A stretch of DNA of 64,000 nt, taken from the NCBI GenBank assembly GCA_964019055.1, contig OZ025223.1, positions 1 to 64,000 of the forward strand. Direction: 5' to 3'. The notes beneath the pieces are model-generated. The model had not been told where the DNA came from and made no database searches. It saw only the letters and a list, made by a program, of their open reading frames with translations. Shown piece after piece: positions 1-64,000 of the stretch. Position numbers and translations under genes: made by a program. Each line of letters starts with the position of its first letter. Positions within the stretch are counted from its first letter, which is position 1. The DNA comes from Anthopleura xanthogrammica. Lineage: Eukaryota; Cnidaria; Anthozoa; Actiniaria; Actiniidae.

Positions 1-3000
1 CCTACCCTACTACCCTAACCCTAACCCTAACCCTAACCCTAACCCTAACCCTAACCTAACCCCTAACCCTAACCCTAACCCTAACCACCCTAACCCTAAC
101 CCTAACCCTAACCCTAACCCTAACCCTAACCCTAACCCTAACCCTAACCCTAACCCTAACCCTAACCCTAACCCTAACCCTAACCCTAACCCTAACCCTA
201 ACCTAACCCTAACCCTAACCCTAACCCTAACCCTAACCCTAACCCTAACCCTAACCCTAACCCTAACCCTAACCCTAACCCTAACCCTAACCCTAACCCT
301 AACCCTAACCCTAACCCTAACCCTAACCCTAACCCTAACCCTAACCCTAACCCTAACCCTAACCCTAACCCTAACCCTAACCCTAACCCTAACCCTAACC
401 CCTAACCCTAACCCTAACCCTAACCCTAACCCTAACCCTAACCCTAACCCTAACCCTAACCCTAACCCTAACCCTAACCCTAACCCTAACCCTAACCCTA
501 ACCCTAACCCTAACCCTAACCCTAACCCTAACCCTAACCCTAACCCTAACCCTAACCCTAACCCTAACCCTAACCCTAACCCTAACCCTAACCCTAACCC
601 TAACCCTAACCCTAACCCTAACCCTAACCCTAACCCTAACCCTAACCCTAACCCTAACCCTAACCCTAACCCTAACCCTAACCCTAACCCTAACCCTAAC
701 CCTAACCCTAACCCTAACCCTAACCCTAACCCTAACCCTAACCCTAACCCTAACCCTAACCCTAACCCTAACCCTAACCCTAACCCTAACCCTAACCCTA
801 ACCCTAACCCTAACCCTAACCCTAACCCTAACCCTAACCCTAACCCTAACCCTAACCCTAACCCTAACCCTAACCCTAACCCTAACCCTAACCCTAACCC
901 TAACCCTAACCCTAACCCTAACCCTAACCCTAACCCTAACCCTAACCCTAACCCTAACCCTAACCCTAACCCTAACCCTAACCCTAACCCTAACCCTAAC
1001 CCTAACCCTAACCCTAACCCTAACCCTAACCCTAACCCTAACCCTAACCCTAACCCTAACCCTAACCCTAACCCTAACCCTAACCCTAACCCTAACCCTA
1101 ACCCTAACCCTAACCCTAACCCTAACCCTAACCCTAACCCTAACCCTAACCCTAACCCTAACCCTAACCCTAACCCTAACCCTAACCCTAACCCTAACCC
1201 TAACCCTAACCCTAACCCTAACCCTAACCCTAACCCTAACCCTAACCCTAACCCTAACCCTAACCCTAACCCTAACCCTAACCCTAACCCTAACCCTAAC
1301 CCTAACCCTAACCCTAACCCTAACCCTAACCCTAACCCTAACCCTAACCCTAACCCTAACCCTAACCCTAACCCTAACCCTAACCCTAACCCTAACCCTA
1401 ACCCTAACCCTAACCCTAACCCTAACCCTAACCCTAACCCTAACCTAACCCTAACCCTAACCCTAACCCTAACCCTAACCCTAACCCTAACCCTAACCCT
1501 AACCCTAACCCTAACCCTAACCCTAACCCTAACCCTAACCCTAACCCTAACCCTAACCCTAACCCTAACCCTAACCCTAACCCTAACCCTAACCCTAACC
1601 CTAACCCTAACCCTAACCCTAACCCTAACCCTAACCCCTAACCTAACCCTAACCCTAACCCTAACCCTAACCCTAACCCTAACCCTAACCCTAACCCTAA
1701 CCCTAACCCTAACCCTAACCCTAACCCTAACCCTAACCCTAACCCTAACCCTAACCCTAACCCTAACCCTAACCCTAACCCTAACCCTAACCCTAACCCC
1801 TAACCCTAACCCTAACCCTAACCCTAACCCTAACCTAACCCTAACCCTAACCCTAACCCTAACCCTAACCCTAACCCTAACCCTAACCCTAACCCTAACC
1901 CTAACCCTAACCCTAACCCTAACCCTAACCCTAACCCTAACCCTAACCCTAACCCTAACCCTAACCCTAACCCTAACCCTAACCCTAACCCTAACCCTAA
2001 CCCTAACCCTAACCCTAACCCTAACCCTAACCCTAACCCTAACCCTAACCCTAACCCTAACCCTAACCCTAACCCTAACCCTAACCCTAACCCTAACCCT
2101 AACCCTAACCCTAACCTAACCCTAACCCTAACCCTAACCCTAACCCTAACCCTAACCCTAACCCTAACCCTAACCCTAACCCTAACCCTAACCCTAACCC
2201 TAACCCTAACCCTAACCCTAACCCTAACCCTAACCCTAACCCTAACCCTAACCCTAACCCTAACCCTAACCCTAACCCTAACCCTAACCCTAACCCTAAC
2301 CCTAACCCTAACCCTAACCCTAACCCTAACCCTAACCCTAACCCTAACCCTAACCCTAACCCTAACCCTAACCCTAACCCTAACCCTAACCCTAACCCTA
2401 ACCCTAACCCTAACCCTAACCCTAACCCTAACCCTAACCCTAACCCTAACCCTAACCCTAACCCTAACCCTAACCCTAACCCTAACCCTAACCCTAACCC
2501 TAACCCTAACCCTAACCCTAACCCTAACCCTAACCCTAACCCTAACCCTAACCCTAACCCTAACCCTAACCCTAACCCTAACCCTAACCCTAACCCTAAC
2601 CCTAACCCTAACCCTAACCCTAACCCTAACCCTAACCCTAACCCTAACCCTAACCCTAACCCTAACCCTAACCCTAACCCTAACCCTAACCCTAACCCTA
2701 ACCCTAACCCTAACCCTAACCCTAACCCTAACCCTAACCCTAACCCTAACCCTAACCCTAACCCTAACCCTAACCCTAACCCTAACCCTAACCCTAACCC
2801 TAACCCTAACCCTAACCCTAACCCTAACCCTAACCCTAACCCTAACCCTAACCCTAACCCTAACCCTAACCCTAACCCTAACCCTAACCCTAACCCTAAC
2901 CCTAACCCTAACCCTAACCCTAACCCTAACCCTAACCCTAACCCTAACCCTAACCCTAACCCTAACCCTAACCCTAACCCTAACCCTAACCCTAACCCTA

Positions 3001-4884
3001 ACCCTAACCCTAACCCTAACCCTAACCCTAACCCTAACCCTAACCCTAACCCTAACCCTAACCCTAACCCTAACCCTAACCCTAACCCTAACCCTAACCC
3101 TAACCCTAACCCTAACCCTAACCCTAACCCTAACCCTAACCCTAACCCTAACCCTAACCCTAACCCTAACCCTAACCCTAACCCTAACCCTAACCCTAAC
3201 CCTAACCCTAACCCTAACCCTAACCCTAACCCTAACCCTAACCCTAACCCTAACCCTAACCCTAACCCTAACCCTAACCCTAACCCTAACCCTAACCCTA
3301 ACCCTAACCCTAACCCTAACCCTAACCCTAACCCTAACCCTAACCCTAACCCTAACCCTAACCCTAACCCTAACCCTAACCCTAACCCTAACCCTAACCC
3401 TAACCCTAACCCTAACCCTAACCCTAACCCTAACCCTAACCCTAACCCTAACCCTAACCCTAACCCTAACCCTAACCCTAACCCTAACCCTAACCCTAAC
3501 CCTAACCCTAACCCTAACCCTAACCCTAACCCTAACCCTAACCCTAACCCTAACCCTAACCCTAACCCTAACCCTAACCCTAACCCTAACCCTAACCCTA
3601 ACCCTAACCCTAACCCTAACCCTAACCCTAACCCTAACCCTAACCCTAACCCTAACCCTAACCCTAACCCTAACCCTAACCCTAACCCTAACCCTAACCC
3701 TAACCCTAACCCTAACCCTAACCCTAACCCTAACCCTAACCCTAACCCTAACCCTAACCCTAACCCTAACCCTAACCCTAACCCTAACCCTAACCCTAAC
3801 CCTAACCCTAACCCTAACCCTAACCCTAACCCTAACCCTAACCCTAACCCTAACCCTAACCCTAACCCTAACCCTAACCCTAACCCTAACCCTAACCCTA
3901 ACCCTAACCCTAACCCTAACCCTAACCCTAACCCTAACCCTAACCCTAACCCTAACCCTAACCCTAACCCTAACCCTAACCCTAACCCTAACCCTAACCC
4001 TAACCCTAACCCTAACCCTAACCCTAACCCTAACCCTAACCCTAACCCTAACCCTAACCCTAACCCTAACCCTAACCCTAACCCTAACCCTAACCCTAAC
4101 CCTAACCCTAACCCTAACCCTAACCCTAACCCTAACCCTAACCCTAACCCTAACCCTAACCCTAACCCTAACCCTAACCCTAACCCTAACCCTAACCCTA
4201 ACCCTAACCCTAACCCTAACCCTAACCCTAACCCTAACCCTAACCCTAACCCTAACCCTAACCCTAACCCTAACCCTAACCCTAACCCTAACCCTAACCC
4301 TAACCCTAACCCTAACCCTAACCCTAACCCTAACCCTAACCCTAACCCTAACCCTAACCCTAACCCTAACCCTAACCCTAACCCTAACCCTAACCCTAAC
4401 CCTAACCCTAACCCTAACCCTAACCCTAACCCTAACCCTAACCCTAACCCTAACCCTAACCCTAACCCTAACCCTAACCCTAACCCTAACCCTAACCCTA
4501 ACCCTAACCCTAACCCTAACCCTAACCCTAACCCTAACCCTAACCCTAACCCTAACCCTAACCCTAACCCTAACCTAACCTAACCCTAACCCTAACCCTA
4601 ACCCTAACCCTAACCCTAACCTAACCCTAACCCTAACCCTAACCCTAACCCTAACCCTAACCCTAACCCTAACCCTAACCCTAACCCTAACCCTAACCCT
4701 AACCCTAACCCTAACCCTAACCCTAACCTAACCCTAACCCTAACCCTAACCCTAACCCTAACCCTAACCCTAACCCTAACCCTAACCCTAACCCTAACCC
4801 TAACCCTAACCCTAACCCTAACCCTAACCCTAACCCTAACCCTAACCCTAACCCTAACCCTAACCCTAACCCTAACCCTAACCC
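1..4884. repeat. Telomere, (CCCTAA)n, left chromosome end
   Basis: The first 4.88 kb is almost pure CCCTAA on the + strand, equivalent to TTAGGG running toward position 1, as expected for the left end of a chromosome. The first 20 bases are slightly degenerate. Rare variant units, CCTAA (one C short) or CCCCTAA (one C long), are scattered, for example near 47-62, 204, 400, 1444, 1636, 1798, 1834, 2115, 4573-4582, 4620 and 4727. The tract stops abruptly at 4884. This is the standard metazoan telomere repeat. Confidence 0.99.
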
Positions 4885-17725: not shown

Positions 17726-18932
17726 AATATATATTATAATTTATAATTTTTATTCATAATGATGCATGATGCTTATGATGATGGTGATGATTGTGATGAT
17801 GATGGTGATGATAATGATGATATTATGATAATGATAATGGCATTTATTGATAAAATAATCGCACTAATAAGTGAATTGCGAAATTACTTAAAATATACTA
17901 ATAGAAAGTTTAAATGTCTACAATTGTTTGAACTATCTTGGGACTGGGCTTTACAATATTTGAATAAAATATAGATAAAATTTACAATGTACGATATTGA
18001 TTTTAAAGATACGGTCACTACTACAAAATATAAATTCTAAAAATCCTCAAGAGCGGATAACCTGGCAGCGTCCTTTGATAATATTTCTACTATTTCTACT
18101 CTGCAATTATCTATTGAGCTGATTGAACTGCCTTGTCCTGCAAGTTTATCCTCTTTCGATCTAGTGACATTGTCTCAGGTTGAATCAGTGATCAAGAACT
18201 CTCCAACTAAATCGTGTACCTTGTGGATCCTGTACCTACAGTGATCTTGAAGGAATGTCTGCATGACCTTCTCGCCCCAGTCACACAATTGGTCAACACT
18301 TCCCTGTCATCTGGTGAATTTCCATCTGTGTTCAAAACTAGTTGTGTCACGCCCATTCTTAAGAAGCCTACACTCGACCCGGATGTATTTGGTAATTGCA
18401 GGCCTATATCAAACTTATCTTTTCTTTCTAAAGTGTTAGAGCGTATTGTTGCCTTACAATTACACAACCATCTTGCCTTGAATGATCTGTACCCGAAATT
18501 TCAGTCAGCGTATCGGAAGAACCACAGCACGGAGTCCGCTCTATTGAAAGTACAGAACGATCTTCTCATTGCCCTCGATAATGGTCACGAGGCTATACTC
18601 GTGCTTCTCGACTTCTCCGCGGCTTTCGATATAATTGACCACAATATACTTTTCAACAGACTTGAACAGCGCTTTGGCTTATCTGGTACGACATTAAAAT
18701 GGATCAAGTCCTACTTCTCCCAACGTAGTCAGTTTGTCAGTGTCCGCAACAAGGCTTCACCTGATGTGTTAATCAAGCGTGGTGTAGCACAAGGGTCGGT
18801 ACTTGGTCCCCTGTTCTTCTCATTGTATACTTCCCAAATGGAAGATATTTTTTCTGCACATTCCTTAGACGCCATGGTCTACGCAGACGATACACAGATA
18901 TACATCATATTGAAAGATCCGGATAAATCAGC

Positions 18933-19103
18933 TTCATTAAGACGAGTATGGATAAAAAGTTAAATTTTACACCGTAAAAAATAAGAGAGATCACTCACAT
19001 ATTTTTTACGGTGTAAAATTTAACTTTTTATCCATACTGTTTCATTAGAAACACCGACGCAGCCCACACTAGCTTACCGCTAGTTATCATTTCATTAAGA
19101 CGA
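18933..19103. mobile_element. 145-bp hairpin insertion with 13-bp target duplication inside the RT
   Basis: The 13-bp phrase TTCATTAAGACGA occurs at 18933-18945 and again at 19091-19103, and removing the 145 bases after the first copy would make the RT blocks contiguous. The insert begins with a perfect 39-bp inverted repeat (arms 18945-18983 and 19000-19038) separated by a 16-base loop, followed by 52 bases with no partner. No transposase or poly-A tail is present. Confidence 0.75.
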
Positions 19104-19970
19104 CTTGAGTCTTGTATCCAAGAGTATCCAAGATATCAGAACCTGGTCCTTTCTTAACAAGCTTGTACTTAATGATGGAAAAACAGATATCGTCCATATT
19201 TTTTCTAGTTTCTCCAGGCAAGTTCCTATATCATCACATGTTGTCTCATTTGGAAACTGCGTCTTATCCCCGAAGTCTGAAGCTCGCAATCTCGGTGTTG
19301 TTTTTGACAAGCACTTATCACTGAAGGAACACGTTAATAGTATATGCCGTTCAGCATTTTTTGCTTTGAGTAACATTGGAAAGATTCGCAAATTTCTTGA
19401 CCAAAACACTGCTGAATCTTTGGTTCACGCTTTTGTCACATCTTGTCTTGACCAATGTAACTCTCTATTATTTGGACTGACTGCGTACGAAATACAAAAG
19501 CTTCAAAGAGTATTAAACACTGCTGTTCGTATAGTGACTAGGACTCGTCCTGATGCACACATAACGCCGGTATTAAAATCTCTTCATGATCACTGGCTTC
19601 CCATTGAGGCAAGAATACGTTTCAAAATTCTTACAACTGTTTTTAAGGCTTTGAATGAGGCTGCTCCAGCTTCTGTCAAGAACTTACTTTTGCCCCTCAA
19701 GGGCACAAGACTATTAAGATCTTCAAACAAAAACTTTCTAACTATACCTATGTCACGAACACGTACTTATGGTGACAGAGCTTTCTGTATAGCTGGTCCA
19801 AGACTTTGGAACAATTTACCAGACACTCTACGTCTTGAGGATTCTCTGAACATTTTCAAGAAGAAATTAAGACATTCTTATTTGAACATTATTATGGATA
19901 GATATTTTCTTTTTCATTTTCTATTATATATATTTTTTACTTTCTGATCTCATCGTTTTTATATTTTTAT

Positions 19971-23483: not shown

Positions 23484-26400
23484 GTCGTATCTGGCCTTCT
23501 CAGTGAACATTGTATGTAGGGGTGTCGTATCTGGCCTTCTCAGTGAACATTGTATGTAGGGGTGTCGTATCTGACCTTCTCAGTGAACATTGTATGTAGG
23601 GGTGTCGTATCTGACCTTCTCAGTGAACATTGTATGTAGGGGTGTCGTATCTGACCTTCTCAGTGAACATTGTATGTAGGGGTGTCGTATCTGACCTTCT
23701 CAGTGAACATTGTATGTAGGGGTGTCGTATCTGACCTTCTCAGTGAACATCGTGTGTAGGGGTGTCGTATCTGGCCTTCTCAGTGAACATCGTATGTAGG
23801 GGTGTCGTATCTAGCCTTCTCAGTGAACACTGTATGTAGGGGTGTCGTATCTGACCTTCTCAGTGAACACTGTATGTAGGGGTGTCGTATCTAGCCTTCT
23901 CAGTGAACATCGTATGTAGGGGTGTCGTATCTAGCCTTCTCAGTGAACACTGTATGTAGGGGTGTCGTATCTGACCTTCTCAGTGAACACTGTATGTAGG
24001 GGTGTCGTATCTGACCTTCTCAGTGAACACTGTATGTAGGGGTGTCGTATCTGACCTTCTCAGTGAACATTGTATGTAGGGGTGTCGTATCTGACCTTCT
24101 CAGTGAACACTGTATGTAGGGGTGTCGTATCTAGCCTTCTCAGTGAACATCGTATGTAGGGGTGTCGTATCTAGCCTTCTCAGTGAACACTGTATGTAGG
24201 GGTGTCGTATCTGACCTTCTCAGTGAACACTGTATGTAGGGGTGTCGTATCTGGCCTTCACAGTGAACATCGTATGTAAGGGTGTCGTATCTGGCCTTCT
24301 CAGTGAACATTGTATGTAGGGGTGTCGTATCTGACCTTCTCAGTGAACATTGTATGTAGGGGTGTCGTATCTGACCTTCACAGTGAACATTGTATGTAGG
24401 GGTGTCGTATCTGACCTTCTTAGTGAACACTGTATGTAGGGGTGTCGTATCTGACCTTCTCAGTGAACATCGTATGTAGGAGTGTCGTACCTGGCCTTCA
24501 CAGTGAACATCGTATGTAGGGGTGTCGTATCTGGCCTTCACAGTGAACATCGTATGTAAGGGTGTCGTATCTGACCTTCTCAGTGAACATTGTATGTAGG
24601 GGTGTCGTATCTGACCTTCTCAGTGAACATTGTATGTAGGGGTGTCGTATCTGACCTTCTTAGTGAACATTGTATGTAGGGGTGTCGTATCTGACCTTCT
24701 CAGTGAACATCGTATGTAGGGGTGTCGTATCTGGCCTTCACAGTGAACATCGTATGTAGGGGTGTCGTATCTGGCCTTCACAGTGAACATCGTATGTAAG
24801 GGTGTCGTATCTGGCCTTCACAGTGAACATCGTATGTAAGGGTGTCGTATCTGACCTTCTCAGTGAACATTGTATGTAGGGGTGTCGTATCTGGCCTTCA
24901 CAGTGAACATCGTATGTAAGGGTGTTGTATCTGGCCTTCTCAGTGAACATCGTATGTAGGGGTGTCGTATCTGGCCTTCTCAGTGAACATCGTATGTAGG
25001 GGTGTCGTATCTGGCCTTCACAGTGAACATTGTATGTAAGGGTGTCGTATCTGACTTTCACAGTGAACATTGTATGTAGGGGTGTCGTATCTGACCTTCT
25101 TAGTGAACACTGTATGTAGGAGTGTCGTATCTGGCCTTCTCAGTGAACATCGTATGTAGGAGTGTCGTATCTGGCCTTCACAGTGAACATTGTATGTAAG
25201 GGTGTCGTATCTGACCTTCACAGTGAACATTGTATGTAGGGGTGTCGTATCTGACCTTCTTAGTGAACACTGTATGTAGGAGTGTCGTATCTGGCCTTCT
25301 CAGTGAACATCGTATGTAGGAGTGTCGTATCTGGCCTTCACAGTGAACATTGTATGTAAGGGTGTCGTATCTGGCCTTCTCAGTGAACATCGTATGTAGG
25401 GGTGTCGTATCTAGCCTTCTCAGTGAACACTGTATGTAGGGGTGTCGTATATGACCTTCTCAGTGAACACTGTATGTAGGGGTGTCGTATCTGGCCTTCA
25501 CAGTGAACATCGTATGTAAGGGTGTCGTATCTGGCCTTCTCAGTGAACATTGTATGTAGGGGTGTCGTATCTGACCTTCTCAGTGAACATTGTATGTAGG
25601 GGTGTCGTATCTGACCTTCACAGTGAACATTGTATGTAGGGGTGTCGTATCTGACCTTCTTAGTGAACACTGTATGTAGGGGTGTCGTATCTGACCTTCT
25701 CAGTGAACATCGTATGTAGGAGTGTCGTACCTGGCCTTCACAGTGAACATCGTATGTAGGGGTGTCGTATCTGGCCTTCACAGTGAACATCGTATGTAAG
25801 GGTGTCGTATCTGACCTTCTCAGTGAACATTGTATGTAGGGGTGTCGTATCTGACCTTCTCAGTGAACATTGTATGTAGGGGTGTCGTATCTGACCTTCT
25901 TAGTGAACATTGTATGTAGGGGTGTCGTATCTGACCTTCTCAGTGAACATCGTATGTAGGGGTGTCGTATCTGGCCTTCACAGTGAACATCGTATGTAGG
26001 GGTGTCGTATCTGGCCTTCACAGTGAACATCGTATGTAAGGGTGTCGTATCTGACCTTCTCAGTGAACATTGTATGTAGGGGTGTCGTATCTGGCCTTCA
26101 CAGTGAACATCGTATGTAAGGGTGTCGTATCTGGCCTTCTCAGTGAACATCGTATGTAGGGGTGTCGTATCTGGCCTTCTCAGTGAACATCGTATGTAAG
26201 GGTGTCGTATCTGACCTTCTCAGTGAACATTGTATGTAGGGGTGTCGTATCTGACCTTCTCAGTGAACATTGTATGTAGGGGTGTCGTATCTGACCTTCT
26301 TAGTGAACATTGTATGTAGGGGTGTCGTATCTGACCTTCTCAGTGAACATCGTATGTAGGGGTGTCGTATCTGGCCTTCACAGTGAACATCGTATGTAGG

Positions 26401-27565
26401 GGTGTCGTATCTGGCCTTCACAGTGAACATCGTATGTAAGGGTGTCGTATCTGACCTTCTCAGTGAACATTGTATGTAGGGGTGTCGTATCTGGCCTTCA
26501 CAGTGAACATCGTATGTAAGGGTGTCGTATCTGGCCTTCTCAGTGAACATCGTATGTAGGGGTGTCGTATCTGGCCTTCTCAGTGAACATCGTTTGTAGG
26601 GGTGTCGTATCTGGCCTTCACAGTGAACATTGTATGTAAGGGTGTCGTATCTGACTTTCACAGTGAACATTGTATGTAGGGGTGTCGTATCTGACCTTCT
26701 TAGTGAACACTGTATGTAGGAGTGTCGTATCTGGCCTTCTCAGTGAACATCGTATGTAGGAGTGTCGTATCTGGCCTTCACAGTGAACATTGTATGTAAG
26801 GGTGTCGTATCTGACCTTCACAGTGAACATTGTATGTAGGGGTGTCGTATCTGACCTTCTTAGTGAACACTGTATGTAGGAGTGTCGTATCTGGCCTTCT
26901 CAGTGAACATCGTATGTAGGAGTGTCGTATCTGGCCTTCACAGTGAACATTGTATGTAAGGGTGTCGTATCTGGCCTTCACAGTGAACATCGTATGTAAG
27001 GGTGTCGTATCTAGCCTTCACAGTGAACATCGTATGTAGGGGTGTCGTATCTGGCCTTCACAGTGAACATCGTATGTAGGGGTGTCGTATCTGGCCTTCA
27101 CAGTGAACATCGTATGTAAGGGTGTCGTATCTGGCCTTCACAGTGAACATCGTATGTAAGGGTGTCGTATCTGGCCTTCTCAGTGAACATTGTATGTAAG
27201 GGTGTCGTATCTGACCTTCACAGTGAACATTGTATGTAGGGGTGTCGTATCTGACCTTCTTAGTGAACACTGTATGTAGGAGTGTCGTATCTGGCCTTCT
27301 CAGTGAACATCGTATGTAGGAGTGTCGTATCTGGCCTTCACAGTGAACATTGTATGTAAGGGTGTCGTATCTGGCCTTCACAGTGAACATCGTATGTAAG
27401 GGTGTCGTATCTAGCCTTCACAGTGAACATCGTATGTAGGGGTGTCGTATCTGGCCTTCACAGTGAACATCGTATGTAGGGGTGTCGTATCTGGCCTTCA
27501 CAGTGAACATCGTATGTAAGGGTGTCGTATCTGGCCTTCACAGTGAACATCGTATGTAAGGGTGT
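23484..27565. repeat. 40-bp satellite, 102 copies, no length variation
   Basis: The unit is close to GTCGTATCTGACCTTCTCAG followed by TGAACATTGTATGTAGGGGT. From 23484 to 27565 the spacing is exactly 40 bp for 102 units, differing only by substitutions at a few positions (G/A in CTGGCC or CTGACC, T/A in CTTCT or CTTCA, T/C in ATTGT or ATCGT, A/G in TAAGG or TAGGG). These variants form higher-order blocks: segments recur after 160, 400, 1240 and 1600 bp. Reverse-strand open frames of 64-136 codons reflect the repeat (40 is not a multiple of 3, so the coding cycle is 120 bp) and are not called genes. Confidence 0.98.
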
Positions 27566-29383: not shown

Positions 29384-32300
29384 ATGGCTTGGCTTGTAGT
29401 CATAACACTTGTGTCATTGGTGCATTTACAATCAGTATCGTCTATTTTCCTACCTTACTGGAAAGCCAAAAACCACACCGAAAACTCCTTTCATATTCCA
29501 CTTAACGCTTTGGCAGTTGATGCTGATGTCGCTAAGTTTGGTAAAAAGCTGAGTTCCCTACAGAATATAACCAAAGAGCACTCACTTGATGAACGATGTG
29601 AGACTGGTTTGCCTATGTCTATTGCATGGCACCAATATGCGCCATATGTGACCATGTTTAATTCAATACACAAGAAAAAGGTCGGGTTTACTGTGGAAGG
29701 GATGTTTCCTGCCATACTAACACAGGTCAGTATTCAACACCAGTCAGCTGTCACAAATGATTATCTGCTAGCTGTTTGGACTTTTGTTGCCATTTTTTCT
29801 GGGTGTGGGTTCCTCTTGGTGTCTGATCCCCTTTTAGCCCTGTTTTCCGACCCCCACCCGATTATCTCCCACATCCAACTGAAAGATCAACTTCTCAAGG
29901 CTGCGGGACACAAGGGTGTGTCTGTCTGTCATGATATATGGTGTTTGCTGCGGGACACAAGGGGCTGTCTGTCTGTCTGTCAGTCGTGATATATGGTGTT
30001 TGCTGCGGGAAACAAGGGGTTGTCTGTCAGTTGTGTCTGTCTGTATGCATGTCTGTCGTGATATATATTGTGTTTGTTTTGCAGATACTTGGTTCTTGCT
30101 GTCATCCAAACAGTTCAGTCACATTTGGAAAATTTCTTCGGTCGGCACGTCATGGTGAAGAATTGTTCGTTGAGAATAATTTTGATATAACGTTTCCTCT
30201 GTACGGCTACGAAGCATTTAGGTAAGTTAAAATCGAACAGACTGACTTGCGCTTTTAATAAAGTACTGTATTATTGCTATGTACCCCGCCTACTGAATGC
30301 CATTCTGCTCAATCTGTTATCTGATCCACTTACTTACTTATGTATCCATTTTTTCCATTTAGCAATACCTTTCGCCGCCATGCCTTCATACCTTTAGTCC
30401 GCGCTCCTCGTGTTATTCTTTTGGTGCACGATAATCAGAGTAACACCCAGACATCTGTTTTGGTTAACACTATCATTAGTGCCTGGCCTATGCTTATATT
30501 CATTCTTGTGACCGCTCTCTTTTCTGGAATCGTCCTGTGGTTTCTGGTAAGATGTTTTTTTTGCATGCATTACTTCATGTACGCATCTAGTATTTATTGC
30601 TATATATATTGACAATTCACAAGTCATAATCCGATCATGTTACTAACAACAGCCATTACATACACCACGTTACCATATGAACACTGCTGGTCAGTACTGA
30701 ATGACTGACTTACATTTACATACACCACGTTACCATATCAACACTGCTGGTCAGTACTGAATGACTGACTTACATTTACATACACCACGTTACCATATGA
30801 ACACTGCTGGTCAGTACTGAATGACTGACTTACATTTACATACACCACGTTACCATATGAACACTGCTGGTCAGTACTGAATGACTGACTTACATTGCTG
30901 TTAATATCATTTTAATTCTTCATAGGATCATAATCAAAACCCTGACGAGTTCCCGCCACCGTTTCTCAGAGGAGCATGGGAAGGATTCTGGTGGGCTCTA
31001 GTTACCATGACTACGGTTGGTTATGGGGATCGCTCACCAAAGTCTGCCCTTGGTCGTGTGTTTTGCATCGTGTGGATAATTACAGGCGTTATAATCGTTT
31101 CTATTTTCACTGCTCTTGTCACAGCGTCTCTATCAGCAAGCACTTATCCAAACTTTAAAATCCACGGATCCAAGGTAATTAGATTCAAATACGTGTCACA
31201 TGAGGTTGCTGCTTTCCTTGCCATAACTTTAGATCAAGACTTTAGATCATATGACACATCATTTCTCACTAAGAACCGTATTTTAAAGATATTTGCTGGA
31301 TTGTGTTTATGTGTTCAAAGATTGGAGCAGTCAATGGAAGTGAAGAGTTTCGTCTTGGTGTTAGCATGAATGCTGATATGAAAGGTTTGTACTTTTTCTA
31401 CCACAGCTACAGGGAGGTTGTTACCATATACGCAAATGCGCTCATGCGTTCACTTGAAATAGCATTTCTGCGTATCCTGTTTTCAAAATGTTATTGGTTC
31501 ACGCCTTTGCCGTGACTGTTCTAGTGCCGTGCCGTGTGTGAAGTCATTCGGTGCCGTATCCGCGCCGCGCCACTCCGTAACCGTGCCGCGCCACTCCGTA
31601 ACCACACTCTTACGAAATCTGCGCTATCCAATTTTTATGCGACCGCCTTCTGCAAAAATGTGGATAAAAAGTCTTGGCAGTTTACTTACGCCCTTTTTGA
31701 TTTTAGTGTTTTCGAACGTAATGCAAATGACAAAGGAGCTTCTGAAAAACGAGATTGATGGAGCACTCGTGGATAACTACGTCATCACACACTTCTTGAA
31801 GCTAATCAAAGATGAGCCAATTAGGGTAGAGAAGTATATTGAACATCCAATCACGTATGGAGCTGTATTAGCCCGAAATTCGTCACGACTTGAACGATGT
31901 ATGCGTAATTACATCGTAGACTATCCTCAAGAGATCTTTGAGAAAATTTCTGAAAACTTGATTCCGCTCAAGGTAAATCACATGCATATTAATTAAATGA
32001 CTCGTTTTATTCATGTACAATCCTAAAATGTGGAACGGAATGTATTGCCTTCCCAGAATCCAACCGATGACGTGAGTCAGCAGCTAAAAGCAGCTGAGGC
32101 ACTGTTTTACCAAGAGAAGATATTCGGCCATATGATGTTTGCTGGACTTGGGATAGTTGGAACTCTCTTCTTTTTTGGTATTATCTGGGAATTCGCTTAC
32201 AGGAGACCAAAAATACGTAAGTATTCTGCACTAAAATATATTACCACCACCGAAATCAGTCAAACATTTTGATTTCCATTATATTCTTTTCTTTTCCCAC

Positions 32301-32523
32301 AGAAAATCAGCGCATATGTCTTGGACCAAAAATGAAGTTTAGTTCGAATGATGAAACAGTTAAATTACAAGCGACTGATAACTCACGTCTGGCCAAACTA
32401 GATGATATGATTAGTGAATATCAGATGTTCCATGAAGCCTGGATCAGCAAACTGAAGAAAATACGGGATGCAGAGTTGAACGGCAACGAAATGGAAGGGA
32501 GTAAAGAAATGAGAGAATCCTGA
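29384..32523 (+). CDS. Ionotropic glutamate receptor-like K+ channel (GluR0/AvGluR1-like), 540 aa, 8 exons
   Basis: Exons: 29384-29725, 30085-30221, 30363-30546, 30926-31174, 31321-31384, 31707-31972, 32057-32216, 32303-32523; all introns GT-AG, phases consistent, 541 codons including stop. Residues 1-20 are a signal peptide (MAWLVVITLVSLVHLQSVSS). About 60-195 forms ligand-binding lobe S1, with an iGluR-like APYV...VEGMFPAILTQILG. M1 is about 196-221. The pore loop has WWALVTMTTVGYGDR, with the K+ filter TVGYGD at 251-256. M3 is about 263-294, where FTALVTASL replaces the SYTANLAAF gate. Lobe S2 (about 295-435) shows IGAVNGSEEFRLGV and IDGALVDNY; D348 is a candidate agonist-binding acid. M4 is about 437-460, then an 80-residue cytoplasmic tail. 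There is no amino-terminal domain, which makes it compact like GluR0. In animals a K+ filter in this fold is known from rotifer AvGluR1. K+ selectivity and the ligand are inferred. A plain two-TM K+ channel is unlikely because of S2 and M4. Confidence 0.85.
29905..30060. repeat. Intronic CTGT/GATATATGGTGTTTG minisatellite
   Basis: Three imperfect copies of a unit containing TGCGGGACACAAGGG, CTGTCTGTC and GTGATATATGGTGTTTGCTG, within intron 1 of the receptor gene. Confidence 0.75.
30657..30896. repeat. 60-bp intronic tandem repeat, 4 near-identical copies
   Basis: ACATACACCACGTTACCATA, then TGAACACTGCTGGTCAGTAC and TGAATGACTGACTTACATT, repeat at exactly 60 bp four times in intron 3 of the receptor gene. 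The only change I see among full copies is one substitution in copy 2 (ATATCAAC for ATATGAAC). Confidence 0.95.
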
Positions 32524-38752: not shown

Positions 38753-54303
<15,551 letters not shown>

Positions 54304-60448: not shown

Positions 60449-61326
60449 TCAGTAAAGAACTATAAACTGTACTGCTGTTTGTCCGGGCATTGTGGTGAGC
60501 GCTGTTTTGAATGATCCGTTTTTCTTGATGCCAATGAAGAGGTCATGACGATGGCGAAGATAATACTTATGGGATGCAAAGCTGTGGAATCCGTTTCTCT
60601 CAAGTTTAGTTCGGAATAAGCTTTCTTCTCTTAAACGACCCTAAACATTACCAGAATGAGAACATTAGTCAAGGGGTTTACTAGATTGGTGTAGTGAAAC
60701 ATGAAGATGTTTAATCGTACCTGCATTTTCGCTTTCCCCTGCCAATTAATTGCCAAATACTTTCCTGTTCCGAGGCTTCTTAGTCGTACAATACTTTGTC
60801 CATATGACTGTAACTCAAACAAAGCTAAAGAAAACAAACGAATTGAATACATGGAACTGAATATATGTTCATTCATTGAGAACAATAACTGAGTGAATCT
60901 TACTTTGATTGCTTTTGATGTCTGTTGTGCCTTGTAGTCGTTTGTTGGAAGCTTCCATCAGATAACCAGTTCGACAATAAAGGCGTATCACACGAATATG
61001 AGTTGGGCTCGCAACCTTCGGGATGCTGAAGATTTCTCTGTTCAATCGGAGCCTTTTTCTTGCGGCTGTGCCGTTTTCTTTCACACATTTGTGTATTTTC
61101 CAATCTACGTGGGTTTCATTTGAACTGATTGATGCCTGGTGGGCTGCTGAAGTTAAACAGAGGGTAAATACAACACAAACTGCCAGCTGTAAAGAATAAG
61201 AAATAGGTGTTACCAAGGTAAAATGCCATGAATATGTACTGTAGCTCTTAGAAAGATGTGAGTGCAAAGTGTACCTACATGCATGTTCTTAGTAGAGCGA
61301 AAGAATCTTACCTTGAAGTGAATCAT
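60449..61326 (-). CDS. FGF-B, fibroblast growth factor-like, 197 aa, 4 coding exons
   Basis: Exons in transcription order: 61312-61326, 60904-61186, 60721-60824, 60449-60640; 198 codons including stop, with phases 0, 1 and 0. The first exon encodes only MIHFK and joins LAVCVVFTLCLTSAAHQA to make a clean signal peptide of about 20 residues. Next come a basic spacer (ARKRLRLNREIF) and the first core strands (HIRVIRLYCRTGYLMEASNK), then the 104-bp exon (LFELQSYGQSIVRLRSLGTG, then KYLAINWQGKAKMQ), then GRLREESLFRTKLERNGFHS, ASHKYYLRHRHDLFIGIKKN and a Gly-Gln stretch ending in a stop. Order and intron phases match classical FGF genes. It converges with FGF-A and diverges from FGF-C. Confidence 0.92.
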
Positions 61327-63454
61327 TCTGTTCGCATTATGAGCTAAAAACAGGCTCATCTTCTGGTGACAGTTTGAGAAACCTTTAATGAGTGAGTAAA
61401 GGGTTGCCTTGTCCCGCCTGCTCAATCAGACAGGTGATCAATAGAGTACCATCTGCAAATTGCCCAGTTTCAGTTAATCATACATCATAAATGTTCTGTA
61501 AAACCATGGTTAACAAGATCGAACTGAAGATACGCCGCTTCCATGTAGTCACAAGATCTATGTTTTAAGATCGTAGTGTTATTTGTGCATCCAATCGGAT
61601 TATTGACTCAAGTAGCAGGAGGAACAATGTTCTCCCTATTAACTAGACATGAATCTTGATATTGAATGTCGGCCTTCATAAACTCATCATTAAAAACAAT
61701 GAAAATATTGAGGACTTTTAGGGGATCCGAAAATACTGTACGTCGTTTAGTTATTTTTTAAGTCAGTATGATTAACTATATAACTAGTACAATCCATGTA
61801 TCACAACCTCTCAGCACATAAGCCGATTGTACCTGATTCTTAAAGATTTTCTCATAATCTAAGCACAAAATATTCTTTATAATCAAAGCGGCCCCTGAAC
61901 TCAGCACTACAAGCCTCTTTGCGGTTTGAATTCGTTAAACCACACAAATTGTTGTCATGATGACGTCTGATTGGCTCGCACATTACATAGACGACAAGAC
62001 TCATTCTACAAGACGCAAAATATATTTTATTAGTCTTCAAGAATAGGGTCTGAACAGTGGACTTAGAGCACAAAGTCATACCGACGCTTATTATGCGGTG
62101 TGAATGTCGTTCCTAAATGACTGGCTGATAATACAGTTCCGACACGTTGAATGATCGATCCGTTACAAATCTCGGCTCAGACTCGCAGCATGAAGTTGTT
62201 GGTCACGAAATGATGTTGTGTTGTTTTTTTCTTTTGACATGTCTGATGGCTTCCCTCCCACTCGACAGCCTTCTTTTCATGTTCGTATTCCTAGAGTTCG
62301 AAAGAATTGTTTTTGGGGAGGAGGGCGGTCTCACTGTAATTAACTTCCTTTCATCTTTCGTTTTGCAAATCATTCTTTGTTGTGATGAAGTTCTTTAGGA
62401 CATGTCTACGTTTGTTTTCGAAAGATCCTTAACAAAACAAAAGGCAATTATTTTATGAAAACAAAAACAATTGTAAATAAACAATGAAGTGAACCAAGGC
62501 AGGAAAACGATACAAGAGGCCAACACAACGTCACATGCTTACAATTCCTTCACTTTTTTCAATGTTTTATAGTAGGATTAAGTTGTTAATCTAGCGTGAA
62601 AATCAATGAATATGTTTCTCATTTGCTATCCTTGTAGTTCTTTATGAGTAGAACACAATGGAATCGTCTAGTTTAAGTGTTAATTGCGGAAGAACAGGTC
62701 TACAAAATATTGTCCTGTGATGCCCAACGTCATCAGACAGAACAAGAACACGACCAGTACCGACGCTTCGCCTGCTGCTGCTGCTGCCTTAGAGGTTATT
62801 CTATGCTCACCAACATTACCACACTGACCAAGTAGGCTGTTCTGGGCGGTAAGTTGAGTATTATCGCTTAACTATTTTGATGACTGTGGTCAGTAGATTC
62901 CTGTGCTTTGTTTAGATCCAGAATTAAGACAACTATAGAGATGACTGCATGGCATGACAGAAAGAAAAAAAAGAAAAAAATTTCACAACGAATTTGTTCA
63001 TCGTTATAATTAGTGGCATCAACTGCAAATATTGAGTTTTAAAAAAGAAAGAAATAACCAAACAAATTCTTTTCAAATGTTAAGAACTATTTTGTATCCT
63101 GATAGATCCATTCGACCACCAACATGCTGGTCACTTAGTTAGTTGTTAAAACAATCTATCTGTAATTCAGTGAGTAAATCATATCGACCATCAATCACTT
63201 GCTCTGAATCTTATCAAGTTTGTAGTTCATCCTTGGTAAAAAACATCCTTGGAATCTCAAACTCCTTTTCTTGGGGACTGGGTGTGCTAGCTGATTGAAT
63301 CCTATAGTTCTGTACTGCGAGATGTGAAAAGTCATTTTCTTTACAGCTGAACCAGAAATCAGCTTATCAAATATTGAGTCAAATACAAATAATAGTATTA
63401 ACTGTAAGTTTTTATTCATTTACAGATTTAAGAAAAAACGAATTCATTAGAATA
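61327..63454. promoter_or_regulatory. Shared upstream region of FGF-B and FGF-C
   Basis: About 2.1 kb lies between the two divergent FGF start codons and should carry regulatory sequence for both. I see no additional coding exon. FGF-C probably has a 5' UTR intron ending with the acceptor TTTACAG at about 63424. Reverse and forward frames of 75-83 codons (61852-62079, 62147-62398) have no family resemblance. Confidence 0.5.
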
Positions 63455-64000
63455 ATGGTCAAAAATGTCAATATTCTGTTAGTCATCCTACTTGTGTGTT
63501 ACGAACCGTTGGTTGTCAGCAAAAAACTACGCAATAAAACTGAAATATCGTCAAGATTTAGAAACAAAACCAAAAGCCAAGCAACGAAAGTATTCTATCA
63601 TAGAAATACGAAATGGCCATCTCCAAGGATTAATGTTAACTGGATGAGTATTTACGTCATCACCAAGAAACCAACCAATCGCGTGCATTGTAAGATCTTT
63701 TGTCGAAGCGGCTATCATCTACAGATTTTACCAAGTGGTCTGGTGAGAGGTACAATCGTGCAAACCAGCAAACATGGTGAGTAACAGAAACAATAACCTT
63801 AACGTAACCTATGGCAACAATACTTGTGACCTAAAAGTAGCTATGGTAACTATGACCTCAGCTGAGATCCAGACAAATCAATAATTCATTTATTTTTATA
63901 GTTTTGTTCGAGATGCAGTCATTTGGACCAAGTCTTGTCAAGATAAAAAGTGTGGCAACAGGTCGTTATCTATCCATGAGAAGAGACGGCACCTTGAGGG
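63455..64000 (+). CDS. FGF-C, fibroblast growth factor-like, partial (runs off the window)
   Basis: Exon 63455-63776 starts at ATG and encodes a signal peptide (MVKNVNILLVILLVCYEPLV), a lysine/arginine- and asparagine-rich spacer with potential N-glycosylation sites (RNKT twice), then the first core strands (VHCKIFCRSGYHLQILPSGL, then VRGTIVQ). It ends in phase 1 (CAT G|GTGAGT). The next exon begins at 63902 and reads LFEMQSFGPSLVKIKSVATG and RYLSMRRDGTLR up to the window edge; a 104-bp length would take it to 64005. It is most like FGF-A and FGF-B among genes here. The C-terminal exon is outside the window. It is divergent from FGF-B. Confidence 0.9.

Follow-up and report, generated by a model that had tools for sequence, protein, structure and literature searches.

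Animal ionotropic glutamate receptors (iGluRs) are classified into four subfamilies (PMC6307864). The terms "potassium", "K+ channel" and "GluR0" have zero occurrences in the main text of that paper. The K+-type receptors named in the cited sections of PMC12226733, PMC12332018, PMC3483616 and PMC11479355 are GluR0 and AvGluR1. GluR0 is presented without the fourth membrane helix (M4) in an excerpt of PMC11479355. AvGluR1, a rotifer receptor, is called "highly atypical" in a passage of PMC12226733. In 2010, an excerpt of PMC2950845 placed the combination of a binding site and a K+ filter "only in bacteria". The iGluRs of Nematostella are regarded as excitatory, and proof of glutamate binding is said to be lacking, in an extract of PMC13335744. 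Here we describe a gene of the sea anemone Anthopleura xanthogrammica. It lies at 29384-32523 on the forward strand of the window, which is the whole stretch analysed (the first 64,000 nucleotides of contig OZ025223.1). The gene encodes a glutamate-receptor-like protein with the K+ selectivity signature TVGYGD. This receptor is a member of an overlooked animal family, animal-wide though patchy.

Gene, pore and binding domain

The gene, as spliced from the genomic sequence, is a single coding region of eight exons. It encodes 540 residues and ends with TGA. All seven introns are GT-AG, and the exon phases are compatible throughout. The Actinia tenebrosa protein LOC116301975 isoform X2 (P0001), recorded as uncharacterised, is 90.6% identical to the spliced translation over 500 residues without gaps. 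Exon by exon, the identity is 82-100%. A protein from Nematostella shares 70% identity over 98%. The eight-exon chain is supported by these kin proteins. No further copy of the gene was found in the window by tblastn with 15 family members as queries. Intron 3 holds four 60-bp tandem units within 30660-30899, starting at 30660, 30720, 30780 and 30840.

Pfam recognizes Ion_trans_2 (E-value 7.5e-16), Ion_trans (1.9e-10) and Lig_chan (3e-9) in the spliced protein. Lig_chan reaches 37.3 bits, with a cut-off of 30.8. It is also present in 52/52 relatives at E-values up to 0.01, the hemichordate P0068 being slightly below the cut-off (30.0 bits). By hydropathy, the N-terminus is hydrophobic and there are three membrane helices. 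The structure was read from P0001, the 91% identical Actinia relative, as a stand-in for the window protein. Its AlphaFold2 model, built with an alignment of 97 relatives, has a mean predicted local distance difference test score (pLDDT) of 85.5 and a predicted template modelling score (pTM) of 0.71. The order of the model is that of iGluRs: S1, M1 (residues 201-222), pore helix (234-249), filter (251-256), M3 (262-293), S2 and M4 (within 435-473). S1 (about 72-190) and S2 (about 303-414) form a two-lobed domain. Both the model and hydropathy contain M4. Only about 50 residues separate the N-terminal hydrophobic helix from S1, which leaves no room for an amino-terminal domain. Two transmembrane helices flank the pore, with neither a charged S4 nor the other voltage-sensor helices (S1-S4) before it. 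The region preceding M1 is a binding-protein lobe by fold match, not a voltage sensor.

The filter is intact in 96 of the 97 aligned relatives, and the sole exception changes V252 to M. The best pore matches are Shaker-like channels, and the stretch FWWA.VTMTTVGYGD is common to the receptor and voltage-gated K+ channels. The surroundings of the filter also match bacterial GluR0-type channels closely. M3 reads SIFTALVTA, which is not the exact iGluR gate SYTANLAA. Among the aligned relatives, T283 is conserved in 85/97 and A284 in 79/97. The first matches of an M3 profile are AMPA and NMDA receptors. A profile of M3, S2 and M4 gives 29 matches: 26 NMDA GluN1, two GluR0, one ancestral binding protein and no K+ channel. 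Judged by sequence, the M3 of the receptor is of the iGluR type.

In structural comparison, GluR0 ranks first for the binding domain. The models of two distant family members show an amino-acid-binding-protein fold in this domain. S2 is recognised as part of this fold by sequence too (36 PDB matches for an S2-only profile). An S1-only profile (18/23 cut sequences) had zero PDB matches at E-values up to 10, so the assignment of S1 rests on fold. The Pfam binding-domain models SBP_bac_3 and Lig_chan-Glu_bd do not match the window protein, and they match 0/52 family members versus 23/23 bacterial channels. The profile inputs were 22/23 cut sequences for A6, 18/23 for A7 and 17/22 for A9, gappy rows having been dropped by eye before the searches, and 25/25 for A8.

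The observation is confirmed, far beyond chance, and is larger than first reported. An earlier note on this DNA described a spliced protein of 540 residues with iGluR order, TVGYGD and no amino-terminal domain. The splicing of eight exons, Pfam and the P0001 model agree with it. The signal peptide of that note corresponds to the hydrophobic N-terminus and stays putative, by hydropathy. The GluR0-like design is borne out by the structural ranking of the binding domain, and the clamshell expected from S1 and S2 appears as the two-lobed domain of P0001. The match to Lig_chan and Ion_trans_2 was found; the one to SBP_bac_3 was not. The note also considered separate transcripts for exons 1-3 and 4-8. 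The P0001 alignment is gap-free across every exon, so in the P0001 gene model both parts fall within one protein. Nor does the receptor place as a plain two-transmembrane K+ channel without S1/S2 similarity, given the S1/S2 fold and the S2 and M3 profiles.

Function, family and origin

We consider it fairly probable that the protein is a subunit of a tetrameric, ligand-gated, hyperpolarising K+ channel of the glutamate-receptor superfamily. The tetramer, the opening by ligand, the K+ selectivity, the hyperpolarisation and the kind of ligand are deduced from anatomy. S1 and S2 would fold into an extracellular clamshell, which would shut on a small amine- or amino-acid-like ligand. Its closure would pull M3 and open the pore with the TVGYGD filter. 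K+ would then exit the cell, which would hyperpolarise. M4 and the conserved cytoplasmic tail helix might aid the assembly of the tetramer or its anchoring. A tail motif (hydrophobic-x3-Trp-x2/3-hydrophobic), selected after inspecting the sequences, occurs in 68 of 87 tails of at least 45 residues; across 200 shuffles it averaged 8.8 tails and peaked at 17. The region of this motif is helical in a hemichordate model (485-534), and this tail helix may be a coiled coil.

Residue 348 is acidic in 95/97 aligned relatives and sits one column away from GluA2 E705 in the alignment. We take it to be the position that holds the ligand amino group in iGluRs. Pro152 is conserved in 96/97. The conserved arginine (bacterial R106, conserved at 90% or more) presumably holds the ligand carboxylate in iGluRs. 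It is not conserved in the family, where the nearest column has K in 29 and R in 27 of 97. Because the acidic residue is kept but the carboxylate arginine is not, an amine, or an amino acid held differently, would be likelier as ligand than classically bound glutamate.

That this arginine is not conserved could also point to a K+ channel with a clamshell that has given up ligand binding. Such a channel would be a leak, or controlled by partner proteins, pH or ions. Pfam fails to recognize the binding domain, and some members are fused with CUB, immunoglobulin (Ig) or fibronectin domains; the CUB/Ig forms suggest adhesion. Nevertheless, the amino-acid-binding fold is retained in the models of two distant members and the acidic pocket residue in 95/97. 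In insect ionotropic receptors (IRs) and AvGluR1, moreover, the classic carboxylate contact can change with binding retained. We regard a non-binding clamshell as unlikely. An ordinary voltage-gated or two-transmembrane K+ channel mistaken for a receptor is highly improbable and was put aside: the top pore matches are Shaker-like and several relatives are named potassium channel in public records, but the voltage sensor is absent, the S1/S2 fold and the iGluR-type M3 are present, and the profile of M3, S2 and M4 retrieves no K+ channel among 29 matches.

The family was followed in lists of 120 matches out of 314-350. In one such list, 86 of the 120 homologues shown have no bacterial binding-domain label and 34 are of bacterial type. 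The cnidarians among the matches listed are sea anemones, stony corals, octocorals, the jellyfish Rhopilema, Hydra, Hydractinia and Clytia. The bilaterians among them are the hemichordates Glandiceps, Saccoglossus and Ptychodera, and the annelids Dimorphilus and Owenia. The earlier note proposed a receptor of an early animal lineage, but the receptor is not a single one confined to such a lineage. No sponge, ctenophore, placozoan, vertebrate, arthropod or mollusc is named among the matches listed, which is no proof of absence. The public names of the relatives are "uncharacterized", "potassium channel domain-containing" or erroneous fused-domain names ("Cubilin"). Ahead of the receptor part, CUB and Ig domains occur in 5/52 scanned members and fibronectin in 1/52. 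A survey based on the binding domain can overlook the family, since the Pfam models of this domain match 0/52. This blindness may be the reason why it was overlooked.

The alignment of 97 relatives (A3) was hand-picked from the homologue lists, excluding fragments, near-copies and the two-unit P0079. Alignment A1 has 23 rows, six of them bacterial. P0079, from the annelid Dimorphilus, is a single chain with two receptor units; the filter reads TVGFGD in the first and TVGYGD in the second. In the Actinia record P0127, the receptor is joined to a glycosyltransferase, perhaps by fusion of gene models.

The trees were made by a quick method, with support from the Shimodaira-Hasegawa-like approximate likelihood ratio test (SH-aLRT) only. 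GluA2, GLR3.4 and a GluN1 fragment represent the eukaryotic iGluRs. In a 58-row tree, one branch separates 43 family rows from 15 bacteria (SH-aLRT 100). The bilaterian rows (three hemichordate, three annelid, one metagenome) form one clade (SH-aLRT 99) beside several cnidarian lines. Given these two groupings, the family probably predates the cnidarian-bilaterian split, and it is unlikely to stem from contamination or a recent transfer. The three eukaryotic iGluRs cluster together, apart from the family (SH-aLRT 98; in a second run 96, and 88 without pore columns). In the approximately unbiased (AU) test, a grouping of the family with eukaryotic iGluRs versus bacteria is not rejected (p = 0.42, or 0.35 with the pore columns removed). 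Nor is a placement of the family together with GluA2 and the GluN1 fragment, the sole animal iGluRs included (p = 0.097, or 0.156 with those columns removed).

The earlier note set survival of the ancestral design beside a secondary regain, and the AU test does not decide between the two. Besides survival, two origins have to be weighed, regain and gene transfer, the latter absent from the note. An animal iGluR might have shed its amino-terminal domain and re-evolved a K+ filter. The presence of M4, as in eukaryotic iGluRs and unlike GluR0, fits this regain, and so does the second AU result. However, the best trees put the three eukaryotic iGluRs away from the family, beside or inside the bacterial rows, and the filter region closely resembles that of bacterial GluR0-type channels. 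A regain seems somewhat unlikely. We are equally doubtful that a bacterial gene entered an early animal and acquired M4 and the tail later. The S1-S2 kinship with bacterial GluR0-type channels over the full length is consistent with such a transfer, as are the matches listed, without a named sponge, ctenophore or placozoan row. On the other hand, the first AU result leaves a grouping with eukaryotic iGluRs unrejected as well. A recent transfer is opposed by the introns, by the single animal clade versus 15 bacteria and by the single bilaterian clade.

A more far-reaching reading of the family is tentative. It is possible that it forms a class of animal ionotropic receptors of its own, separate from AKDF, NMDA, epsilon and lambda as published, consisting of inhibitory ligand-gated K+ channels. 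They would have kept the pore of the GluR0 design and gained M4, the tail helix and partly adhesion-type domains. Early animals would then have had fast K+-based inhibition beside chloride channels, still used by cnidarians, hemichordates and annelids. These groups include several laboratory animals. The family would make it testable whether the first animal glutamate-type receptors passed K+, and whether cnidarian cells are inhibited by ligand-gated K+ channels.

Features of the locus and its surroundings

Table. Features of the receptor gene in window coordinates.
Feature	Position	Strand	Basis
Complete 8-exon coding sequence of the glutamate-receptor-like K+ channel	29384..32523	+	splicing, kin alignment
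Exon 1: hydrophobic N-terminus and start of S1	29384..29725	+	splicing, hydropathy
Putative signal peptide (hydrophobic N-terminus)	29384..29443	+	hydropathy only
Exon 2: continuation of S1	30085..30221	+	splicing
Exon 3: last part of S1, larger part of M1	30363..30546	+	splicing, P0001 model, hydropathy
M1, interrupted by intron 3	30484..30928	+	P0001 model, hydropathy
Exon 4: end of M1, pore helix, filter, M3	30926..31174	+	splicing, P0001 model, hydropathy
K+ selectivity signature TVGYGD, residues 251-256	31013..31030	+	sequence; intact in 96/97 relatives
M3 helix with FTA, counterpart of the iGluR gate motif	31046..31141	+	P0001 model, profile
Exon 5: start of S2, containing NGSEEF	31321..31384	+	splicing
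Exon 6: remainder of S2	31707..31972	+	splicing, P0001 model
Asp348, paired in the alignment with the conserved Asp in S2 of bacterial GluR0-type channels	31772..31774	+	alignment
Exon 7: linker and M4 (M4 at 32117-32212)	32057..32216	+	splicing, P0001 model, hydropathy
Exon 8: cytoplasmic tail, stop codon	32303..32523	+	splicing
Conserved amphipathic tail helix (LDDMISEYQMFHEAWISKLKKIRDAE), putative coiled coil	32398..32475	+	tail motif count, hemichordate model

The telomere repeat CCCTAA has 756 copies in positions 1-4600 of the window versus 65 in the other 59400 bases. This enrichment makes positions 1-4600 a probable chromosome end. Reverse transcriptase open reading frames (ORFs) of a retroelement occupy 18211-19947 (+), the first with RVT_1 at 1.4e-25. 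A tandem satellite at 24140-26739 (-) contains four long repetitive ORFs of 133-159 residues. Exons of a PHIP/BRWD-like WD40-bromodomain gene lie at 41477-54303 (+) (WD40 1.8e-6; bromodomain 9.4e-10). Amid them is a long AAAG-type microsatellite with a KKER reading frame (52047-52610). The ORFs 60869-61288 (-) and 63308-63784 (+) share a similar C-R-x-G-Y stretch of FGF-like appearance. The Pfam FGF model gives the second an E-value of 0.0073, below the cut-off, and does not match the first.

Comparison with known systems

Searches of open-licence full-text literature gave no description of the family, and AvGluR1 is the only animal K+-type receptor that turned up in them. For AvGluR1, from the rotifer Adineta vaga, the resemblance observed is one of fold. 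It is not among the 36 PDB matches of the S2-only profile, nor by name among the matches listed; close kinship is neither shown nor excluded. Voltage-gated K+ channels share the stretch around the filter. However, the family lacks their voltage sensor, and its M3 and flanks are of the iGluR type.

Bacterial GluR0-type receptors (Synechocystis GluR0; Group 1 of PMC2950845) have the same order of S1, M1, pore, M3 and S2, the same K+ signature and likewise no amino-terminal domain. They match the family profile at an E-value of 2.3e-49 and rank first by fold of the binding domain. They differ in M4 and the cytoplasmic tail helix, which belong to the family. The Pfam binding-domain models match only the bacterial channels, and the conserved arginine of these is absent in the family. 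The metazoan iGluR classes AKDF, NMDA, epsilon and lambda (PMC6307864, PMC12226733) share with the family the type of M3, S2, M4 and the iGluR fold. In contrast to them, the family has no amino-terminal domain, and a K+ signature replaces the Q/R/N-site pore.
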